Source of the DNA: Ruficoccus sp. ZRK36
Lineage (GTDB): Bacteria; Verrucomicrobiota; Verrucomicrobiia; Opitutales; Cerasicoccaceae
Assembly: GCF_019603315.1 (NCBI RefSeq)
Contig: NZ_CP080649.1
Span: 1,751,501 to 1,815,500 of the forward strand
Direction of reading: 5' to 3'
DNA length: 64,000 nt
Under the pieces are notes generated by a model. That model worked only from the letters and a program-made list of their open reading frames with translations. It made no database searches and was not told the origin of the DNA. The number at the start of each line of letters is the position of its first letter. Within the stretch, counting starts at the first letter, position 1. Positions 53,649 through 62,138 of the stretch are shown piece by piece. A program made the translations under genes and the position numbers.

Positions 53649-53724
53649 GCCGGGTTAGCTCAGTTGGTAGAGCAACTGATTTGTAATCAGTAGGTCGTCG
53701 GTTCGACTCCGTCCCCCGGCTCCA
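53649..53724 (+). tRNA. tRNA-Thr (anticodon TGT)
   Basis: 76 nt with encoded CCA. Cloverleaf: acceptor GCCGGGT/CCCCGGC, D-arm GCTC..GAGC, anticodon stem ACTGA/TCAGT with loop TTTGTAA (anticodon TGT), T-loop TTCGACT. Two pairs do not form: 7:66 (T-C) in the acceptor stem and 50:64 (T-T) in the T-stem. The gene is probably functional but is weaker than usual; it is the left neighbour of an accessory region. Confidence 0.85.
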
Positions 53725-53838
53725 CTTTTCTCAAGCGGTTTTCGCTGATAAGCAGGGGCTTACGAGATGTTTGGGTATATGGGCCGAGTCTCATCCAGTC
53801 TCAATAAATTTCGCCCAGTCTCGAAAAACCCCCTGTTT

Positions 53839-53862
53839 TTGGGCAACTATTTGGGCAACTAT
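53839..53862 (+). repeat. 12-bp tandem repeat
   Basis: TTGGGCAACTAT occurs twice in direct succession, 115 bases after the tRNA-Thr. Three CAGTCTC/GAGTCTC-like motifs lie just before it (53788-53822). No gene is visible in 53725-53920. Confidence 0.7.
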
Positions 53863-53920
53863 TTTTGAGCTTTTCAGACCTGTTTCGGACGGATAGTCCT
53901 CATGGTAGTAATCCTGCCCG

Positions 53921-54406
53921 ATGAGCGCTGCCCCGAAGTACGATCCCAACAACGAGATTTTTGTCCGACGTGAGGACTTTGACCGTGTCTTTTTGAAGGC
54001 CATCCCCAAGGCGACATTCCACCGCTGGGTCAGTGAAGGTAAGATCAAGAAGGCCCGGGACCTGGAGGGGTGGTACCTGCTGAACAAAACGCTCGTACAC
54101 CAAGGGATGGAGCCAGTGGACGTCGAGGAGTTCCGACAGGAGCGGCAGGAGGTGCCCCAGGGCCTAAAGAACAGCCAGTTACTTTACATCGCCGTCCTGC
54201 AATCCGACGCCGCCTTCGAGATATTATCCCCACCGCGTTTTAAACTTCCCGGCACACTGACCCCGGAAGAGGTCGGCAAAATCCAAATCCTGAAGGCCGA
54301 ACACCTGAAGGTCATGGACCTTTACACGGAACGGTCCGAGCGCATCATCTACCGGCATGGTTTCCTGGATGCCCTGGATGCGGCAGCTTTCGTTGATCGA
54401 GAATAA
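53921..54406 (+). CDS. small protein with HTH-like N-terminus, possible mobile-element gene
   Basis: This 161-residue protein of unknown family has an N-terminus IFVRREDFDRVFLKAIPKATFHRWVSEGKIKKARDLEG that has the outline of a winged-helix DNA-binding segment (as in excisionase-like or MerR-like domains); the rest is helical and charged. The last 51 bases, plus the stop and nine bases more, are duplicated at 61418-61477. It lies 197 bases after tRNA-Thr. I infer a recombination- or element-related gene; no homolog name can be given. Confidence 0.7.
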   Translation: MSAAPKYDPNNEIFVRREDFDRVFLKAIPKATFHRWVSEGKIKKARDLEGWYLLNKTLVHQGMEPVDVEEFRQERQEVPQGLKNSQLLYIAVLQSDAAFEILSPPRFKLPGTLTPEEVGKIQILKAEHLKVMDLYTERSERIIYRHGFLDALDAAAFVDRE

Positions 54407-54415
54407 GTGGTAGGG
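54356..54415 (+). repeat. 60-bp direct repeat, left copy (island boundary)
   Basis: The 3' end of the HTH-like gene and its stop. It matches 61418-61477 at 58 of 60 positions; the differences are C/G after CGTTGAT and A/C after GTGGT. Confidence 0.95.
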
Positions 54416-54796
54416 GCTTGGGATGCGTCCCTAGGATATCTTCAGATATAATCCATGGCTATCATCATGGGATGGCCTTCATGCTGTGGCATCTGGGCGG
54501 TACTTCGGCTCCGAACTCTGCATGGTTGCTTAGGGCTTGTGCTGGAAACCCAGAACACAGCAGCGTCACCTGTCGTATCCATTTTGAGTAATGCTTTGCT
54601 CTATAGTTAGAACATAATGTGTATTGTCTCAGGTGAGCTGTTTTCGTAAATGATGGTGCCGTAGATGTGGTAATGAATACCCCAACATCCAGGCCGGATG
54701 ACGATGCTTGTGCTGTCTATTGAAAACAGGGCAAGGCAAGTATTACTTGCGCACAGACGCTTTCCCATAAAATCAAACCCTAAGACCATACTATCA
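54416..54796. other. 380 bp gap at the left edge of the island
   Basis: No gene is visible. It contains the 18-nt motif TTGCTCTATAGTTAGAAC at 54596-54613, which recurs upstream of the prepilin-like gene. Confidence 0.7.
54596..54613 (+). promoter_or_regulatory. shared 18-nt motif, copy 1
   Basis: TTGCTCTATAGTTAGAAC, identical at 17 of 18 positions to 57021-57038. It contains the palindromic CTATAG core. It lies about 185 bases upstream of the PEP-CTERM gene and could be an operator or promoter element. Confidence 0.45.
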
Positions 54797-55657
54797 ATGA
54801 AGAACAAAGCCCTAACCCTTGCACTGTTTTCCTGTGTTGTTTGCACCGCTGGCTTCGGCCAATGGACGTCCCAGCTCTCCGACAACTTCGACAGCTACAG
54901 CTTCGGAGATCAGCCGGGTGGCTACTGGTACAACTCCAGCGCCACGACGGATACTGGCGCAAACTCCCTCGTGACCAATCAGGACGGGGGTACCAGCTCC
55001 ACCAATGTGACGCTGCCAGCCAATAACCTCGGAGGCGGCAATGCCCTCTATTTCTTTGACACTTCTGGCGGGGCTACGCGTGCGGCGATGAATGTCAGCT
55101 CCACAGGTAGCAACTTTGATGTCGTGCGGGTAAGCTTCGACTTCAGCCTTCCGACCATTGTCAGTGGTACATCGACCTTTGGTGTAATCACGCTGACCAG
55201 CGCTGATAACACTAATTTTTCCAGCAGTAGCGACCGGGCTGTCTCGATCAGTGTGAAAAACGATGGCCAACTGGTCTGGAGTGGCGGCAGCCATACGCTG
55301 AGTAACCCGAGCAGTGCGCATTCGCTCTCGATCGTGGCCAATGGTACGGACGCCGACTATTCCTATGCTGCTCTTGATGGTAGCGGGACGAGCACCATCT
55401 CCAGCTACAGCTTCGACCTTTACGTCGACGATGCGCTGATCAAAACATCTATCGCATTCTCTACCGATTCGGTTGAGCTGGGACGCTTTGGGTTTACGAC
55501 ATTTGGCGGGGCACAGGGAGACTTCATGATTGATAACCTGGAGATGTACTCTGCCGCAATCCCCGAGGCCTCCACCATGATGCTGCTCGCGCTGAGTCTG
55601 GGGGTGCTCCCGATGGCGTTGCGCTATCGGGCCCGCCGGAAGTCGCGTACGAATTAG
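54797..55657 (+). CDS. PEP-CTERM-like secreted protein
   Basis: This 286-residue protein has a signal peptide (MKNKALTLALFSCVVCTAGFGQ), a Ser/Thr/Gly-rich jelly-roll-like body (TSQLSDNFDSYSFGDQPGG..., RVSFDFSLP, DFMIDNLEMYS), and a C-terminal sorting tail IPEASTMMLLALSLGVLPMAL followed by RARRKSRTN. PEA replaces PEP, a frequent variant of the exosortase signal in this phylum. The start ATG 54797 is decided by the signal peptide. It is the first gene of the repeat-flanked island. Confidence 0.88.
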   Translation: MKNKALTLALFSCVVCTAGFGQWTSQLSDNFDSYSFGDQPGGYWYNSSATTDTGANSLVTNQDGGTSSTNVTLPANNLGGGNALYFFDTSGGATRAAMNVSSTGSNFDVVRVSFDFSLPTIVSGTSTFGVITLTSADNTNFSSSSDRAVSISVKNDGQLVWSGGSHTLSNPSSAHSLSIVANGTDADYSYAALDGSGTSTISSYSFDLYVDDALIKTSIAFSTDSVELGRFGFTTFGGAQGDFMIDNLEMYSAAIPEASTMMLLALSLGVLPMALRYRARRKSRTN

Positions 55658-55679
55658 TAAAATCATTGGGGATATACTG

Positions 55680-55716
55680 AGGTGTAGGCGCTCCCGTGCC
55701 AGGAGTACCTGCACCT
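55680..55716. repeat. long hairpin after the PEP-CTERM-like gene
   Basis: AGGTGTAGG pairs with CCTGCACCT (one T-G pair) and inside it CTCC with GGAG. No T run follows. It may protect the 3' end of the mRNA or end transcription in another way. Confidence 0.65.
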
Positions 55717-55754
55717 GATGAAGGGGACATCCGTAAAGTCTCTGTTGTGGTTGT

Positions 55755-55798
55755 GTGCCCGCGTGTGAGGATTATTGGGTTTTTCCTCACCCGGGCAC
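55755..55798. repeat. second long hairpin upstream of the LacI gene
   Basis: GTGCCCG pairs with CGGGCAC, and inside it GTGAGG with CCTCAC, with a T-rich loop. It lies 130 bases before the LacI gene. The rest of 55658-55927 shows nothing recognisable beyond these two hairpins. Confidence 0.65.
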
Positions 55799-55927
55799 GC
55801 GAGGGTTGAGAAGACTTTCAGGACGAAATAACCTCGATCGCATAGATGCGCCTGCGTTGCTGCAGGTTAGCCTCTTTGTACTTTATTGTTCGCGTATCGG
55901 GCGAAGAAAACTCATTTTGCGCGAAGA

Positions 55928-56962
55928 GTGAAACGCGTTACCCTTAAGGATGTCGCCCAGGAGGCGGGGCTTCATGTCACCTCGGTGTCCATGGCCATGC
56001 GGAACCATCCGCGTATCTCATCGGCCACTCGGGAGCGGGTTCAGGCGATTGCCAAGCGTATGGGCTATTGTCCGGATCCGGTTTTGTCTGCACTGAATGC
56101 CTATCGCCATAGTAAGCAGCGGCCCGCCTATCAGGCGACGCTGGCCTGGATCAACGACGGACCCCACCGGCCAGAGAATGAAATGCCGTGGTGGTACAGC
56201 GATTACTTTGTCAGTGCGCAGGAGCGTGCCCAGGAGCTGGGCTACAAGCTTGAGGAGTACTGTATCCCGGACCTGAAGATGGACGGCGTCGGCATCTCCC
56301 GTATGCTGAGCAGCCGGAACATTCCGGGGATCATTATTGCTCCCCTGCCACTGGGGCGCACGCATACCATCGACCTGAAGTGGGACCGTTTCTCTGCGCT
56401 CGCTATCGGGTACTCCCTGATCCGTCCACGCCTGCATGTTGTGACTAATCACCACTACCTGACGATGCAGGAGGTCATTACAAAGCTGCGTTCCCTGGGC
56501 TATGAGCGTGTGAGCCTCGTTTGCTGTCACGATAATGATCGCCGGGTCAACTACGCCTATACGGCCATGCACTGGGTGGATTATTATCAGCAGCCGACTT
56601 CACGCCGAGTGCCGCCCTTGATGTTCAAAGAGGCGTTGCCCACGCAAGAGAAGCTTTTGCGTTGGTATGAACGCTATAAGCCCACTGCTGTGATCTGCAA
56701 TGACCAGAAGATTACCCAGATGTTTGTCGATCTCGGCATTATGCCAGGGCGGGACATTGCTGTTGCCAGTGCGCGTGCGAGTAATCCGCCTGGCGAGCGG
56801 GTCCATGCCGGAATGGATCAGAACGGCCATTCCATCGGTTCGCTGTCTGTGGATATTTTGGTTGGGATGATGCAGCGTAACGAGCGCGGTATCCCTGCTG
56901 TGCCAAATGTGACGATGGTAAACAGTCAGTGGGTCTCTGGCTGGACTGTGAAGGAAGATTGA
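55928..56962 (+). CDS. LacI-family transcriptional regulator
   Basis: This protein has 344 residues. The N-terminal HTH is VTLKDVAQEAGLHVTSVSMAMRN with HPRISSATRERVQAIAKRMGYCPDP as hinge. The C-terminal part is a periplasmic-binding-protein-like sensor (GIIIAPLP, GYERVSLVCCHDN, AVICNDQKITQMFVDLGIMPGRDIAV). The start is a GTG at 55928, matching standard LacI N-termini; a TTG-initiated longer frame from 55886 is unlikely. It lies in the island before the prepilin-like and CAZyme-like genes and is the natural candidate for their sugar-responsive control. Confidence 0.92.
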   Translation: MKRVTLKDVAQEAGLHVTSVSMAMRNHPRISSATRERVQAIAKRMGYCPDPVLSALNAYRHSKQRPAYQATLAWINDGPHRPENEMPWWYSDYFVSAQERAQELGYKLEEYCIPDLKMDGVGISRMLSSRNIPGIIIAPLPLGRTHTIDLKWDRFSALAIGYSLIRPRLHVVTNHHYLTMQEVITKLRSLGYERVSLVCCHDNDRRVNYAYTAMHWVDYYQQPTSRRVPPLMFKEALPTQEKLLRWYERYKPTAVICNDQKITQMFVDLGIMPGRDIAVASARASNPPGERVHAGMDQNGHSIGSLSVDILVGMMQRNERGIPAVPNVTMVNSQWVSGWTVKED

Positions 56963-57020
56963 TTCTCCTGTCCCTGGCAGTGCGTGCAATGCGTAGCTAT
57001 TGGGAGCATATGTCTCCTTG

Positions 57021-57038
57021 TTGCTCTATAGATAGAAC
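57021..57038 (+). promoter_or_regulatory. shared 18-nt motif, copy 2
   Basis: TTGCTCTATAGATAGAAC, 46 bases before the start of the prepilin-like gene. One base differs from 54596-54613. Here the core extends to the palindrome TCTATAGA. Confidence 0.45.
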
Positions 57039-57083
57039 TATGGAGTGTTTGCTGGGGTTGATGACCGGAGACATATTGAATGC

Positions 57084-57758
57084 ATGCTTAGTACCCGTCG
57101 TTACCCCCTGTGGCGAGGATTCACCCTGATTGAGCTTTTGGCAGTTATCGCTATTATGGCGGTCTTGATGGCGATTCTCATCCCGATGGGCCGCAGTGTG
57201 CGCGCAGCAGCCGATGATGCGGGATGCGCTTCAAACCTGAGACAGATCGGTACGGCCGTTCAGCTCTATGTAAACGAAAACTCCGGCTACCTGCCGGGGC
57301 CATCATGGTCGGCGATCTCGGTGCAGTACAGCCCCCGTGCTGATATTCAAAACACCACTTACGGGATCCGCTATAATCTGTTTACGCACTTGGTCCCTTA
57401 TTTAAGTCACCTTTCGCAGACAGGTGCCCGTACCTACGAGGAACTCGCGTGTCCGGGCTGGCGGAGGGAAGCCACTGACTTAACCAAGCCCTGCTACATC
57501 GCCCAAGACACCTTGCGCGATAGTAAGGGCGTTACTTTCCGCCCATGGGGTAATGCGGGATCCGGTGAGGCGCCGAGCGAATCCGTTTACCAGATCGAGT
57601 CGCCGTCCAGCACATGGGCAATCCGCGATGTGGATAAAGGTAATTTCTCGAATACATCCTCCTCTTACTATTCCAGTTTGCCGGACAGGCCTGTTCATGG
57701 TGATCACCGGAATGTCCTCTACTTCGACTGGCATGTTGGCTCAGTGGATGCAGACTAA
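57084..57758 (+). CDS. prepilin-like protein with N-terminal methylation motif
   Basis: This 224-residue protein has a short basic leader and the type IV prepilin motif RGFTLIELLAVIAIMAVLMAILIP, with Glu at position 5 of the mature form. The C-terminus contains HRNVLYFDWHVGSVDAD, related to the H-X9-DG pattern of DUF1559-type prepilin-like proteins of Planctomycetes, Lentisphaerae and Verrucomicrobiota. In these phyla such genes often sit beside LacI regulators and carbohydrate enzymes. ATG 57084 (MLSTRRYPLWRG) is the proper start. Its function is unknown; surface or pseudopilus assembly is inferred. Confidence 0.88.
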   Translation: MLSTRRYPLWRGFTLIELLAVIAIMAVLMAILIPMGRSVRAAADDAGCASNLRQIGTAVQLYVNENSGYLPGPSWSAISVQYSPRADIQNTTYGIRYNLFTHLVPYLSHLSQTGARTYEELACPGWRREATDLTKPCYIAQDTLRDSKGVTFRPWGNAGSGEAPSESVYQIESPSSTWAIRDVDKGNFSNTSSSYYSSLPDRPVHGDHRNVLYFDWHVGSVDAD

Positions 57759-57789
57759 GCCTACTCCTTGAATACGAAAATTTGAATCC

Positions 57790-58407
57790 ATGACCTGCGC
57801 TAAAACTTATCCCTCATTCTTCTATTTGAAACGTGTGCTGATGGCTGGTCTGATGCTGGCTGGCACCACTATGCTGCATGCCTCTGACGATCTGATCGAG
57901 AACGGCACTTTCGAGCACGGAAAGAGCAATTGGCGTATCTATATCCCTGACGGTAATGATGGGGTCGGCGCGCAGTTCGACATCACGCAGGAAGCACAGG
58001 ACGGCGTTGTTTCTTCCGTAGCCTGTCTCAAGTCGACAGAGACAGCCCGCTTTTGCATCAGCCAAAAGAAAACACCTACGCTGGAACCGGGGCGGTATCG
58101 CCTCCAGGCTCGTGTACGTGCCGGGGATGACTTTGAGCCTAAGAAATGGACGCCGGGTTTTGTGGTGCGGCTGACGCAGAAGTTCAAGGATGGACGCAAA
58201 CCCGTTCACGTCTTTGTTAACTGGAAAGGACAAAAATCCACTTCGATCAAATTCCCGGGTCAAGACCCTCTGCCAACGTCATGGACGACGATAGAGGTCG
58301 TGCTTGGTGTCGATGATACTACTCGCGACGTTAGCCTCGACTTCTTTATCTGGGAGGGGAAGGGGAGCGTTTATCTGGATGATGTTTCGCTGGTTCGCCT
58401 CGACTAG
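57790..58407 (+). CDS. secreted carbohydrate-binding-like protein
   Basis: This 205-residue protein has a signal region (VLMAGLMLAGTTMLHA). The mature part starts DDLIENGTFEHGKSNWRIYIPDG and ends GSVYLDDVSLVRLD; this start and end are the standard frame of CBM4/CBM9-like jelly-roll modules (N-G-x-F-E ... W, then VYLDDVSL). It has no catalytic domain. The stop is directly followed by the start region of the lyase gene, so it may act as a binding partner for it. Confidence 0.8.
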   Translation: MTCAKTYPSFFYLKRVLMAGLMLAGTTMLHASDDLIENGTFEHGKSNWRIYIPDGNDGVGAQFDITQEAQDGVVSSVACLKSTETARFCISQKKTPTLEPGRYRLQARVRAGDDFEPKKWTPGFVVRLTQKFKDGRKPVHVFVNWKGQKSTSIKFPGQDPLPTSWTTIEVVLGVDDTTRDVSLDFFIWEGKGSVYLDDVSLVRLD

Positions 58408-58419
58408 TTGGATTTTACC

Positions 58420-60372
58420 ATGTTTGCCATGAAAACCCCCATCTCCTACATGTGTCTGACCGTTGTCTCTTTGTTGATTACGGCTGCCTGCTCAAGGCCA
58501 TCCGTGGAGGTGCCTGCCTCCTCTGAAGGCGCGGCTTCCTCAGTCGCTATCGATAATGCTTCGGCAGATGTGTCCTCCCAGGTTCCGCTCTTGCTCTCGG
58601 GCGAACGGCTCTCTCATATCCGCGAGCAGGCTCGTCAGGACCCCTTGCTGGAGGAGGTGCTGGAAATGTTGCGATCGGTGGGTGAGGCTAACCTTGAAGA
58701 GCCGCCGATTGGCCCCCTGGAAAAATCGCCGGAGTTGCAGCAATGCCGTCGCGCTTCCAGCCGTTTGCTGACGAATGCCTTTCTCTATCGACTGGATGGC
58801 GATGAGCGCTACCTCTACCGCACGCGTGAGAACCTGTTGCAGGTCTGCGACTGGCCGGACTGGAACCCCCGCAAATTTCTCTGTGAGGGTGAGACGGCCT
58901 TTGCCGTAGCCGTTACGTATTCGTGGATCGCAGACAAGCTGTCGGAAGAAGACGCGGCCACCATCAAGGCTGCGCTCTACGACAATCTTCTCAGGGATGC
59001 CCCGCAGTATTACTCGCGTACGCCGATCAAGGGGCTGAACTGGCACGCTTTCGGAGAGAGTGCCAAGACCATCAATAACTGGAACTTTATCTGTAACGCG
59101 GGCTTCCTCGCCGCGGCGATTGTTTTGCAGAGTGATTACCCCGAGCTGTCGGGGCAGGTGATTACGGATGTGGGAGAATCGTTGCCGCTGGCAATGGTCA
59201 ACTACGCGCCGGATGGTATCTGGCCAGAGGGCCCCGTGTACTGGCACTATGGGACGGGCTATCTGGTCAATACTCTTGAGTTGCTTCATCAACAGGGCGG
59301 CCAGGCGGCTGTCGTCGAGGAGAAGCTGGTGCAGATGTCGGGCTTTGCCAACACGCTGGACTACATCCTCAATGCTTTTGGCCCGAGCGGAGTGGCATTT
59401 AATTATGCCGACTGTAAGCCCGTGCCGGAGTATCGTGGCAATATCTTTAACCATCTGTGGCTGGCCAAACGCTTTCAGCGTAGCGATACGCTGCCACTGC
59501 TCAGGGACATCGTCAAAAAACGGCTCGATGCCTCTACGGGTATGGATTGGTCCCGGGATGGTCGCCCGCTACTCTTTTCGGCACTGTATTTCCCGAGCGA
59601 GCAGAAGCAGGGGGCCGAAACACAACTGCCGCTGGATATCTTTATGGATGGAAACACCGAGTTGGTGGTCATGCGCTCGGACGATGGGCCTGAGCCGATG
59701 TGGGCTGCTCTCAAGGGCGGGTTTAATGGACTGCCTCACGGGCATCTCGACCTGGGCTCATTTGTGCTGGAGTCGCAGGGCGTACGCTGGGCTCAGGATC
59801 TCGGCCCAGAGGCTTATCTGCCCGGCTATTGGCAGGACCAAAACGGCGGCTCGCGTTGGGAGTTTTACCGGACGAATAATCGCAGCCACAGCACGCTGAC
59901 ACTGGGTGATGCACTACAGGATGCTAACGCACAGGCAGAGGTCGTGGAATTCTCCTCAATGCCGGATGAAGTCTCGGCTACGATTGATCTGTCGGCGGTT
60001 TATCCGGGGCAGGTAGACAGCCTGACGCGTACGCTCACGATGTGGCGATCTGCGAGTGACGATGATAATTCACCACCTGAGTTGCTGGTCGAAGATACCT
60101 TCGAGGGGCTGAGAGGTGGCACAGAAGTGACGTGGCGTATGATGACGCAGGCTCAGGCTCGTATTGCGGAGGATGGCCGATCAGTCGTCTTGGAGCAGGC
60201 AGGAAAGTCGTTGCGGCTGGAAATCGTTGAAGGCGATGCCTCCGCGCAGTTTTCGCTGCGTCCGGCCATCCCACCGACCATGCTTGAAGATCCCAATGAG
60301 GGCTATTCTGAGTTGCTTATTAAGTGGACGCCGACCGAGGATAACGAAGTGCTCGGTGTGAGCATCCGGTAG
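58420..60372 (+). CDS. heparinase II/III-family polysaccharide lyase, lipoprotein
   Basis: This protein has about 650 residues. The signal ends in a lipobox (LLITAAC), so it is probably membrane-anchored. Residues 90-400 form an alpha/alpha-toroid with NWHAFGESAKTINNWNFICNAGFL, YAPDGIWPEGPVYWHYGTGYLV and GPSGVAFNYADCKP, all typical of heparinase II/III-like and alginate-lyase-like enzymes. The C-terminal beta-sandwich has GGFNGLPHGHLDLGSFVLE, where the His/Asp take part in metal or substrate binding. ATG 58420 is preferred to a TTG at 58408. The substrate (uronic-acid polysaccharide) is not determined. Confidence 0.87.
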   Translation: MFAMKTPISYMCLTVVSLLITAACSRPSVEVPASSEGAASSVAIDNASADVSSQVPLLLSGERLSHIREQARQDPLLEEVLEMLRSVGEANLEEPPIGPLEKSPELQQCRRASSRLLTNAFLYRLDGDERYLYRTRENLLQVCDWPDWNPRKFLCEGETAFAVAVTYSWIADKLSEEDAATIKAALYDNLLRDAPQYYSRTPIKGLNWHAFGESAKTINNWNFICNAGFLAAAIVLQSDYPELSGQVITDVGESLPLAMVNYAPDGIWPEGPVYWHYGTGYLVNTLELLHQQGGQAAVVEEKLVQMSGFANTLDYILNAFGPSGVAFNYADCKPVPEYRGNIFNHLWLAKRFQRSDTLPLLRDIVKKRLDASTGMDWSRDGRPLLFSALYFPSEQKQGAETQLPLDIFMDGNTELVVMRSDDGPEPMWAALKGGFNGLPHGHLDLGSFVLESQGVRWAQDLGPEAYLPGYWQDQNGGSRWEFYRTNNRSHSTLTLGDALQDANAQAEVVEFSSMPDEVSATIDLSAVYPGQVDSLTRTLTMWRSASDDDNSPPELLVEDTFEGLRGGTEVTWRMMTQAQARIAEDGRSVVLEQAGKSLRLEIVEGDASAQFSLRPAIPPTMLEDPNEGYSELLIKWTPTEDNEVLGVSIR

Positions 60373-60400
60373 TCATTCAATCGATTGTTTTGGTTTAGGG

Positions 60401-61114
60401 ATGTGCTTTTCAAAAGTAGTCCGGGGCGTGCTATCTGTAGCCGCGGTGCCACTCATCCCGTCTGCCTTGTCGGGTGACATTTACGAGGTCGGCGGTCGCG
60501 ATTATTGTGTGGAGTGGAGGCTGAATGAGACCTTTGACTCGGATGGCTGGGCGAGTCGTTGGACGGTGGAAAGCCAGGGTTCAACGGTCGTTGCCGAGGA
60601 GGGGATGCTACGTATTCGCCGTAACGGTGTTGATAAGGCGACGGGAGGGGTGACGGTGTGGTACGATGAGGATTTGCCGAAAAATGTTCTCATCGTCGTC
60701 GATGCCTCAACGGCACCGGGAGATCATGCCTGTAATCTGAACTTCTTCATCCATGCAAGCGAAGCTGACGGTAGCCCACTGATCTATGGGCGCAGTGCTG
60801 AGTATAAACTATACCATGAGATTCCGAACTACCTCTTTACGCTGACGGGAGGGTTTATGGACGGGTGGGCTCGGGGTCGCCGTAATCCGGGCTTTGTGCT
60901 GGTGCACGAAGACAAAAGTATCCGCGTTGAATCGGGCCAGCGCTACGAGATCACCATAGTTGTCGATGACGGCCAACTGAGCTATTACCTGAATGGAAAG
61001 TTGATTCACCGCTACGTGGATGAGGATCCTCTTCCGGGAGGGCGTTTGGGTCTAAGAAGTTGGTTTTCGGATATAGACTTCGATCGGATACGGATCGCAG
61101 CCATCGTAGAATAA
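60401..61114 (+). CDS. secreted jelly-roll protein (DUF1961/DUF6250-like)
   Basis: This 237-residue protein has a signal-like N-terminus. Then follows a concanavalin-type fold: VEWRLNETFDSDGWASRWTVES, NFFIHASEADGSPL, RYEITIVVDDGQLSYYLNGKLIHRY and GGRLGLRSWFSDIDFDRIRI. Proteins of this kind accompany polysaccharide lyases and hydrolases; some are called DUF1961 (as YesU in Bacillus) or DUF6250. Last intact gene of the island, 28 bases after the lyase. Confidence 0.75.
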   Translation: MCFSKVVRGVLSVAAVPLIPSALSGDIYEVGGRDYCVEWRLNETFDSDGWASRWTVESQGSTVVAEEGMLRIRRNGVDKATGGVTVWYDEDLPKNVLIVVDASTAPGDHACNLNFFIHASEADGSPLIYGRSAEYKLYHEIPNYLFTLTGGFMDGWARGRRNPGFVLVHEDKSIRVESGQRYEITIVVDDGQLSYYLNGKLIHRYVDEDPLPGGRLGLRSWFSDIDFDRIRIAAIVE

Positions 61115-61159
61115 GGGCAGTATTCAGATCTAAAAACTTGGTACAACTGCTATTCATCA

Positions 61160-61350
61160 CTCCGATGCCCAACGTAAAAGCTCGGAGTTCTCCTTCTCCA
61201 AGTCGCGTAGCCTCACGTCCAAGCCGCCATACTTCCGCTTGTAGCGGTGATACGTCGCCCGTGCTCGCGGCAGGCTTCTTCTAAGTTTAGAGCTTCGCTT
61301 GCGCGAAGGGTACGGATAATCTCTTCGGTGCTTCGTCTTCCTCGTTTCAT
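61160..61350 (-). pseudogene. IS3-family transposase OrfA relic
   Basis: On the minus strand ATG 61350 begins MKRGRRSTEEIIRTLRASEALNLEEACREHG, the usual helix-turn-helix start of IS3 OrfA. Then the frame shifts by one and continues as ATYHRYKRKYGGLDV, LRDLEKENSEL, the leucine-zipper part. A few codons are lost at the join, the sequence breaks off near LLRWA, and no OrfB follows. It is a decayed, non-functional copy. Confidence 0.85.
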
Positions 61351-61398
61351 CCTCGAATATCTGTCATTTGACAGAAAATCATTTCATTAACAATGGAC

Positions 61399-61411
61399 CG
61401 GTTTTGAGAGG
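61399..61411 (+). repeat. 13-bp direct repeat, left copy
   Basis: CGGTTTTGAGAGG, repeated at 61916-61928. Confidence 0.75.
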
Positions 61412-61417
61412 CTCAGA

Positions 61418-61477
61418 CATGGTTTCCTGGATGCCCTGGATGCGGCAGCTTTCGTTGATGGAGAATAAGTGGTCGGG
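61418..61477 (+). repeat. 60-bp direct repeat, right copy (island boundary)
   Basis: Second copy of the 3' end of the HTH-like gene of 53921-54406 (58 of 60 identical), including its stop codon. The rest of the gene is absent; upstream sequence is unrelated. Confidence 0.95.
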
Positions 61478-61669
61478 AGCTGGTAGGGGAGAGAGGAAGT
61501 AACCCTGTATTCGCTATCATGAAACGACATATCATCGGGCACATAACAGCCCTCTGCGCCGACTTTTTTGACCTCGTTGGCGTAAATCACGCAGAAAACA
61601 AAAACGAACGTGCACCTGGAGTACCCTGAAATCCGGGGGAGGGGATCGATTTGGGGTCAAATCCTAGTG

Positions 61670-61910
61670 GGCTTAGAAAAGGTATTTATTTCTTAAATTG
61701 CTTATTGATAGGTGTTTAAGTAGTTTTTTCTTGTTATGCTGTGTTTGGGCGAGTGTTTTCGCTTACTAATATTTAGCAAAAAATTATGCGCAAAATTCTA
61801 CTAAGGGGTGAATTGCGGGCGATAAGTAGGTGTTATTGACGCTTAATAGTAACTATTTTTCCCAAAAACAGGCCTTATTATTCTTATTGCTACTAAGACT
61901 GACCTTATTG
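61670..61910. other. AT-rich block
   Basis: It is clearly poorer in G+C than the neighbourhood, with many TTATT, TTAAT and CTTATTG patterns. No open frame of note. It could be a foreign segment or a former regulatory or attachment region. Confidence 0.6.
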
Positions 61911-61915
61911 GGAAT

Positions 61916-61928
61916 CGGTTTTGAGAGG
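61916..61928 (+). repeat. 13-bp direct repeat, right copy
   Basis: CGGTTTTGAGAGG, the same as at 61399-61411; the two bracket about 500 bases that hold the right 60-bp repeat and the AT-rich block. Confidence 0.75.
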
Positions 61929-62138
61929 TAGCCCGACGAGGGGGTGGGGCGTTTTTTGAGGAGGGCTGAAATGTGTCCCCCCTGAGGGATATTCAGGTGT
62001 AAACTATGGTTGTCATTGAGGCTATGTTAAATGCCCACATTCAGAATATGACTATTTATTATTGTTTTAGAATGTGCTCAGTCCTATGAAATTTAGGCAG
62101 GAATATGGATTGATGAGCGTTACTAGTGCAGTACACTC

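Follow-up and report, generated by a model that had tools for sequence, protein, structure and literature searches.

A whole and a truncated end module of tRNA-inserting genomic islands as the probable source of a 60-bp direct repeat in Ruficoccus sp. ZRK36

The window considered here is the whole 64,000-nucleotide stretch C1:1751501-1815500 of the Ruficoccus sp. ZRK36 genome (3.76 Mb), and its subject is a pair of 60-bp direct repeats located close to a tRNA-Thr gene. In this region, the tRNA gene is followed by a small gene for a 161-amino acid (aa) helix-turn-helix (HTH)-like protein, whose last bases form the left repeat copy. Six genes of a 7-kb polysaccharide-degradation block come next, and then a relic of an insertion sequence (IS) of the IS3 family and the right repeat copy. 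A sequence-only reading had described the repeats as flanks of a 7-kb island. The repeat itself, reported with two differences, is confirmed by alignment (58/60 identical); its first 42 bases, with up to three mismatches, were found at two places in the window and in none of the 100 shuffles, which is beyond chance. The absence of the remainder of the gene from the right copy is confirmed as well. Nevertheless, the repeat probably represents one whole and one IS-truncated copy of the end piece of larger, tRNA-inserting islands, rather than the ends of a 7-kb mobile island. Coordinates are compiled in Table 1.

The main evidence comes from paralogs of the left copy and its surroundings, hereafter the end module. 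A search of the genome with 53740-54500 returned seven places, namely the window itself, two near-full copies, the right copy, and three fragments. The near-full copies (C1:3236332-3235704 and C1:972574-973208, 96–97% identical) lie directly 3' of a tRNA-Lys(CTT) and a tRNA-Pro(TGG) gene of the same genome, and the modules at the Thr, Lys, and Pro sites are 96–98% identical among themselves. Downstream of the gene stop, the Lys and Pro copies carry the same sequence that is found downstream of the right copy of the window. Positions 61416-62050 align with C1:973147-973782 of the Pro module with 93.6% identity over 637 aligned bases, and the Lys copy matches the sequence after the right copy over 226 bases (94.7%). 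Because the sequence that follows the gene at the Lys and Pro sites is what follows the right copy, the latter is the tail of a second module, and in view of these full paralogs the earlier reading of the repeats as boundaries of a 7-kb element is not borne out. The homology of the left copy stops nine bases past the stop codon in the comparison with Pro and four bases past it in that with Lys. Five copies from relatives also diverge near the stop codon (within about 20 bases), and therefore the left boundary corresponds to the usual switch to island-specific sequence in this island family; among the copies compared, the post-gene sequence is common only to Lys, Pro, and the right side of the window. 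Within the 60 bp, the right copy agrees with Pro at 59, with the left copy at 58, and with Lys at 55 positions; the remaining pairs are left/Pro (57/60), Pro/Lys (56/60), and left/Lys (53/60). These small differences alone are insufficient to settle the descent of the copies.

Another set of repeats involves the tRNA genes themselves. An identical copy (52/52) of 53680-53731 is present at C1:1853160-1853211, 48 kb away and beyond the window, where it is adjoined by a 465-aa tyrosine integrase; the proposal that tRNA-Thr is an integration site is thereby upheld. Similarly, the Lys island has a 53/53 tRNA repeat at C1:3219658-3219710 beside a 466-aa integrase, and the Pro island has a 54/55 repeat at C1:1037202-1037256, next to an integrase 80% identical to the Thr integrase. 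The islands so delimited measure about 48 kb (Thr), 16.7 kb (Lys), and 64.7 kb (Pro). The 465- and 466-aa proteins match the phrog_1 integrase (1.1e-26, 5.9e-29), and their matches to the XerC and XerD models are far below the cut-offs of these models. With regard to the Pfam family Phage_integrase, the Lys integrase is just under the cut-off and the Thr integrase has no Pfam match. As judged from the sequence, the duplicated tRNA 3' ends 48 kb apart are the likely boundaries of an element, better than the 60-bp repeats. Contigs of six relatives, four of them incomplete (contig ends or partial sequence), were scanned for the tRNA-end repeat, which was found in one. This is Cerasicoccus maritimus (G009), with tRNA-Thr at contig positions 27659-27584, a 45/45 repeat at 2816-2772 that adjoins an integrase 70% identical to the Lys integrase, and an island of 24.8 kb; in another relative (G003), no such repeat was present within the 35 kb scanned. 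The layout consisting of tRNA 3' end and module, variable cargo, integrase, and second tRNA 3' end is thus that of the Thr, Pro, and Lys islands and of one in C. maritimus. The left neighbor gene of tRNA-Thr was used in a search for an empty site in 10 genomes of the family, and E 1e-50 was reached by the Ruficoccus genome only.

Table 1. Features of the tRNA-Thr region (window positions unless prefixed or named otherwise)
Feature	Position	Strand	Basis or remark
tRNA-Thr(TGT), integration target	53649..53724	+	ARAGORN
Repeat of attachment site (attL) type	53680..53731	+	tRNA-Thr anticodon loop to 3' end plus 7 bp; blastn/alignment
Three AGTCTC motifs (53787, 53797, 53817) and two TTGGGCAACT decamers 12 bp apart (53839, 53851)	53787..53860	+	Proposed integrase arm-type sites; sequence, motif scan
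Gene for 161-aa HTH-like protein, tRNA-proximal in the island family	53921..54406	+	Proposed excisionase/directionality factor
Left repeat copy	54356..54415	+	Last position of clear homology to the Pro copy: 54415
Polysaccharide-degradation cargo	54416..61130	+	PEP-CTERM-like, LacI, prepilin-like, CBM4_9-like, heparinase II/III, DUF6250
IS3-family relic	61160..61419	-	Outer end (TGTCTGAGCC...) at 61419; OrfA start codon 61350; inner limit approximate
Right repeat copy	61418..61477	+	3' end of second, IS3-truncated end gene
Continuation of second end module	61478..62050	+	Homology to intact tRNA-Pro module
Module remnants past right repeats	Thr C1:1853160-1853500; Lys 3213381-3213533, 3219353-3219416		

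The right edge of the 7-kb block is formed by the IS3 relic, which measures about 260 bp, has a disrupted frame, and is truncated at its inner (cargo-side) end. Eight IS copies were compared, four of which (two in this genome and one each in G001 and G002) have in common the end TG(T/C)CTGAGCC, the remaining four being more diverged at that end. Because the four share this terminus and have unrelated flanks, the IS end is placed at 61419, and therefore the first two bases (CA) of the right repeat belong to the IS. This outer end is the only terminal feature present, the opposite end having been lost. Two other genomes of the family encode OrfA proteins of this kind that match HTH_Tnp_1 (PF01527), and the first 31 residues of the broken OrfA frame are identical to one of these at 24 positions; no relevant Pfam match was obtained with two pieces of the relic itself. 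The original assignment to IS3 is supported by this OrfA identity, and the relic resembles the IS3 family in the OrfA start and in the TG-type terminus, but it is here just a broken remnant.

Taken together, these data favor, with moderate confidence, the view that the window contains the end, at tRNA-Thr, of an integrative genomic island of 48 kb. This island would probably be composed of two tandem islands from one family, and the 60-bp repeat would derive from their two end modules. Tandem insertion has occurred in this genome, because module remnants lie beyond the right ends of the Thr and Lys islands: another module start, 82% identical to that of the window over 283 bp including the tRNA part, follows the Thr right repeat, and two module fragments persist beyond the Lys right end. 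In such islands, the integrase would recombine the two tRNA-end repeats and the 161-aa protein may aid excision. Two tandem islands of one family would have occupied tRNA-Thr, each with its end module; the left module would have remained whole, followed by the polysaccharide cargo of the first island. An IS3 element would have inserted into the end gene of the second island, about 50 bp short of the end of this gene, and a presumed deletion would then have taken away the remainder of the second module together with most of the IS3 and with the distal end of the first island; the order of these events is likewise presumed. The cargo of the first island would thereby have been fused to the IS3 stump, and the overlap of about 60 bp would be accidental.

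Several observations weigh against this composite origin. No trace of the integrase or the right attachment (att) site of the first island was seen between 54416 and 61419, and the overlap of about 60 bp has to be a coincidence. In addition, the left and right halves, taken together, resemble a single module with an interruption, and the remainder of the Thr island shares blocks in the order of the Pro island, as a single insertion would also give. The difference between 59/60 and 58/60 is too slight to decide the descent of the right copy, and the excisionase role of the 161-aa protein is a proposal, given its lack of a family match and its poor fold model (pLDDT 62). Finally, the comparison of the sequence from 54417 onward with that downstream of the Pro site had a mixed outcome. 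Under strict local scoring from 54416/54417 there was no excess (220/300 shuffles reached the score). Among three scoring schemes, none was high with 150 bases, and one was mildly high with 200 bases (22/400 shuffles). With 260 bases, two stood out as high (14/400 and 9/400 shuffles; 2/400 and 4/400 real stretches of the window), and the third did not (70/400). If real, this similarity would mean that the left module once continued into a diverged relative of the Pro-downstream sequence. By eye, a gapped alternative can be drawn in which the left copy lacks 11 bp and homology extends to 54416, although the aligner did not pick it.

The foremost alternative, considered unlikely, is a one-step insertion in which an intact end module received the 7-kb block together with its IS3 end, about 60 bp of the module being duplicated either by replication-type repair or by a single crossover of a circle carrying that stretch. 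This explanation agrees with the fact that the two halves compose one module as in the Pro copy and that the subsequent blocks are in Pro-island order (8.75 kb, 97.6%; 3.8 kb, 92.8%; and 2.8 kb, 98% identical), and it involves one event, fewer than tandem insertion plus deletion. However, no recombinase has been recognized in the 7 kb, an unusual 60-bp duplication is required, and the location of the IS end exactly at the joint is left unexplained. The insertion of IS3 elements duplicates only a few bases, which also counts against it, and the slightly closer relation of the right copy to Pro than to the left copy is weak evidence in the same direction. Less probable still is a variant of the tandem origin, in which homologous recombination joined sister islands, for example when an excised Pro- or Lys-type island crossed into the Thr island via the module, with subsequent loss. 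The high identity of the modules at the three sites and of the 8.75 kb shared by Thr and Pro speaks for such an exchange, but no junction sets it apart from site-specific tandem insertion. A stand-alone 7-kb mobile island with the 60-bp repeats as att sites, suggested by the flanking direct repeats and the tRNA close by, is very improbable, since the repeated bases make up the 3' end of a gene that has two full paralogs, an IS end forms the right boundary, no integrase was recognized inside, the tRNA 3'-end repeats are better att sites, and the block was not found as a unit in nine other family genomes. Production of the repeat copies by the integration of a 7-kb element itself is largely refuted by the two full paralogs and by the IS end at the right copy. 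Accordingly, of the initial interpretation, the involvement of two gene copies stands and the role of the repeats as boundaries of a 7-kb element does not.

The labels initially given to the cargo are largely sustained. Pfam models support LacI (PF00356), the prepilin (N_methyl, PF07963), the heparinase (Hepar_II_III_C, PF07940), and DUF6250/3-keto-disaccharide hydrolase; the CBM_4_9 match is just below the curated cut-off, and the PEP-CTERM-like protein, labeled by eye, had no Pfam match at E 0.01. No recombinase family appeared in the Pfam scan of the six cargo genes, with only the IS3 relic at the edge. As a unit, the 7-kb block was not found in nine other family genomes, and outside this locus the 10 genomes, including that of Ruficoccus, contain short matches, the longest of 584 bases; the heparinase homologs are distant (≤40% identical). 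Therefore, neither an occupied nor an empty 7-kb site is available for comparison in these nine genomes.

The end module is the conserved part of the islands and has two components. The AGTCTC and TTGGGCAACT motifs that precede the 161-aa gene may be arm-type sites bound by the integrase. In 250 kb of the three regions, exact TTGGGCAACT occurs eight times (Lys 3, Pro 2, Thr 3), always within about 150 bp of an end of one of the three islands; six of these are arranged on the tRNA side as pairs with a distance of 12 bp. The other two, one in Lys and one in Thr, are located between integrase and right repeat, and each is accompanied by an imperfect second site 12 bp off. Pro shows an imperfect pair on its integrase side; for Lys and Pro, the imperfect partners were read by eye. 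When one mismatch is allowed, extra sites turn up both within the islands and beyond them (9, 12, and 13 in all). Similar motif arrays precede most of the end-gene copies of relatives. The second component, the 161-aa protein, is placed as expected of an excisionase or directionality factor; it has no Pfam, PHROG, or NCBIfam match, and no relative of it was found in viral_contigs.

With regard to the spread of the end gene, a profile built from seven copies was run against 223 genomes of the order, which are a sample from a larger group, and matched in nine of them (19 rows corresponding to 18 places, as one gene is split over two rows). Two places begin at a contig edge; at 15 of the 16 with upstream sequence, ARAGORN predicts an upstream tRNA gene on the same strand, and at the sixteenth (G002 C35), which contains an internal stop, a tRNA-like 3' half can be recognized upstream by eye. 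Because six of these 16 testable places fed the profile, the independent tRNA association amounts to 9/10 places. The distance from the tRNA to the match start is 182–239 bases at 14 places and 494 bases at the Met place, where the match is only partial. The targets are Lys(CTT) (3), Thr(TGT) (2), Pro(TGG) (4), and one each of Pro(CGG), Ala(GGC), Ala(CGC), Val(TAC), Asn(GTT), and Met(CAT), that is, nine anticodons, one of them doubtful. Tentatively, and with somewhat less than even confidence, these islands are proposed as an undescribed integrative family present in the family of Cerasicoccus and in some relatives of the same order. Its members would combine a constant end module (arm-site array and 161-aa DNA-binding-like protein) with polysaccharide-degradation and defense cargo, and would use eight or nine tRNA targets of different anticodon, apparently through changes in the integrase and the att core.

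The cargo of the three islands is diverse and includes, in one or another of them, Fic, NERD, a Ser/Thr kinase, a sigma-factor-like protein (under the cut-off), type I restriction HsdM/S/R, a GmrSD protein, a BT4734/DUF5906 primase-helicase-like protein, an N6/N4 methylase, a LacI regulator, a pyruvyl transferase, and a SASA esterase. The 8.75-kb block common to Thr and Pro (C1:1815758-1824509 and 991394-1000121) carries the sigma-factor-like and Ser/Thr kinase genes. Elsewhere in the Thr island (L018 4843-16374), the type I restriction genes HsdM/S/R and the GmrSD-type protein are found together with a 505-aa IS66-like transposase, recognized by eye, that adjoins a second IS3 relic. To the right of the second module remnant, the window contains a 75-aa open reading frame with partial likeness to a phage recombinase (62139-62366; phrog_14161, E 1.8e-6) and a Fic/DOC protein (PF02661, 62426-63073). 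Finally, a 74-bp piece of the post-gene sequence (92% identical, including part of GGCGTAAATCACGCC) is located at C1:1456626-1456699 (L036 1501-1574), about 270 bp past tRNA-Gly(TCC), and is possibly a remnant of another island.

The finding is mostly ordinary, and the island family appears to be undescribed; no description of these islands was found in the open-access literature, which leaves most subscription journals outside. Its significance is that a doubtful 7-kb island gives way to larger islands of Verrucomicrobiota that are defined by sequence. The 161-aa gene next to the tRNA and the TTGGGCAACT pairs can serve as markers for locating further islands and suggest how glycan-degradation genes and restriction systems travel between tRNA sites. 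Moreover, three sister islands with different tRNA targets in one genome constitute a system in which the change of target choice can be studied.

Comparable arrangements are known in other bacteria. In Dehalococcoides, the ssrA islands (vcr-GI) are found in tandem at the transfer-messenger RNA (tmRNA) gene; an integration module occupies one edge, and the cargo is exchanged (PMC3146451). The likeness consists of the tandem position at an RNA gene, of boundaries formed by direct repeats of the 3' end of that gene, and of a conserved integration module combined with exchanged cargo; the Dehalococcoides islands differ in using serine recombinases, a single tmRNA gene, and a module at attL. In Ruficoccus, by contrast, a tyrosine integrase is located at the far end, the tRNA end carries the small HTH-like gene, and several tRNA genes serve as targets. 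Another example is provided by the tRNA islands and integrative and mobilizable elements with tyrosine integrases, which have tRNA 3'-end repeats, the integrase by one att site, and a small HTH-like excisionase of the AlpA/Xis type by the other. The islands reported here share these three traits but are known from sequence, and their 161-aa protein matches no model in Pfam, PHROG, or NCBIfam. Finally, the Tycheposons of Prochlorococcus are tRNA-directed islands with a tyrosine recombinase and variable cargo, and in these three respects, as generally described, they resemble the Ruficoccus islands.

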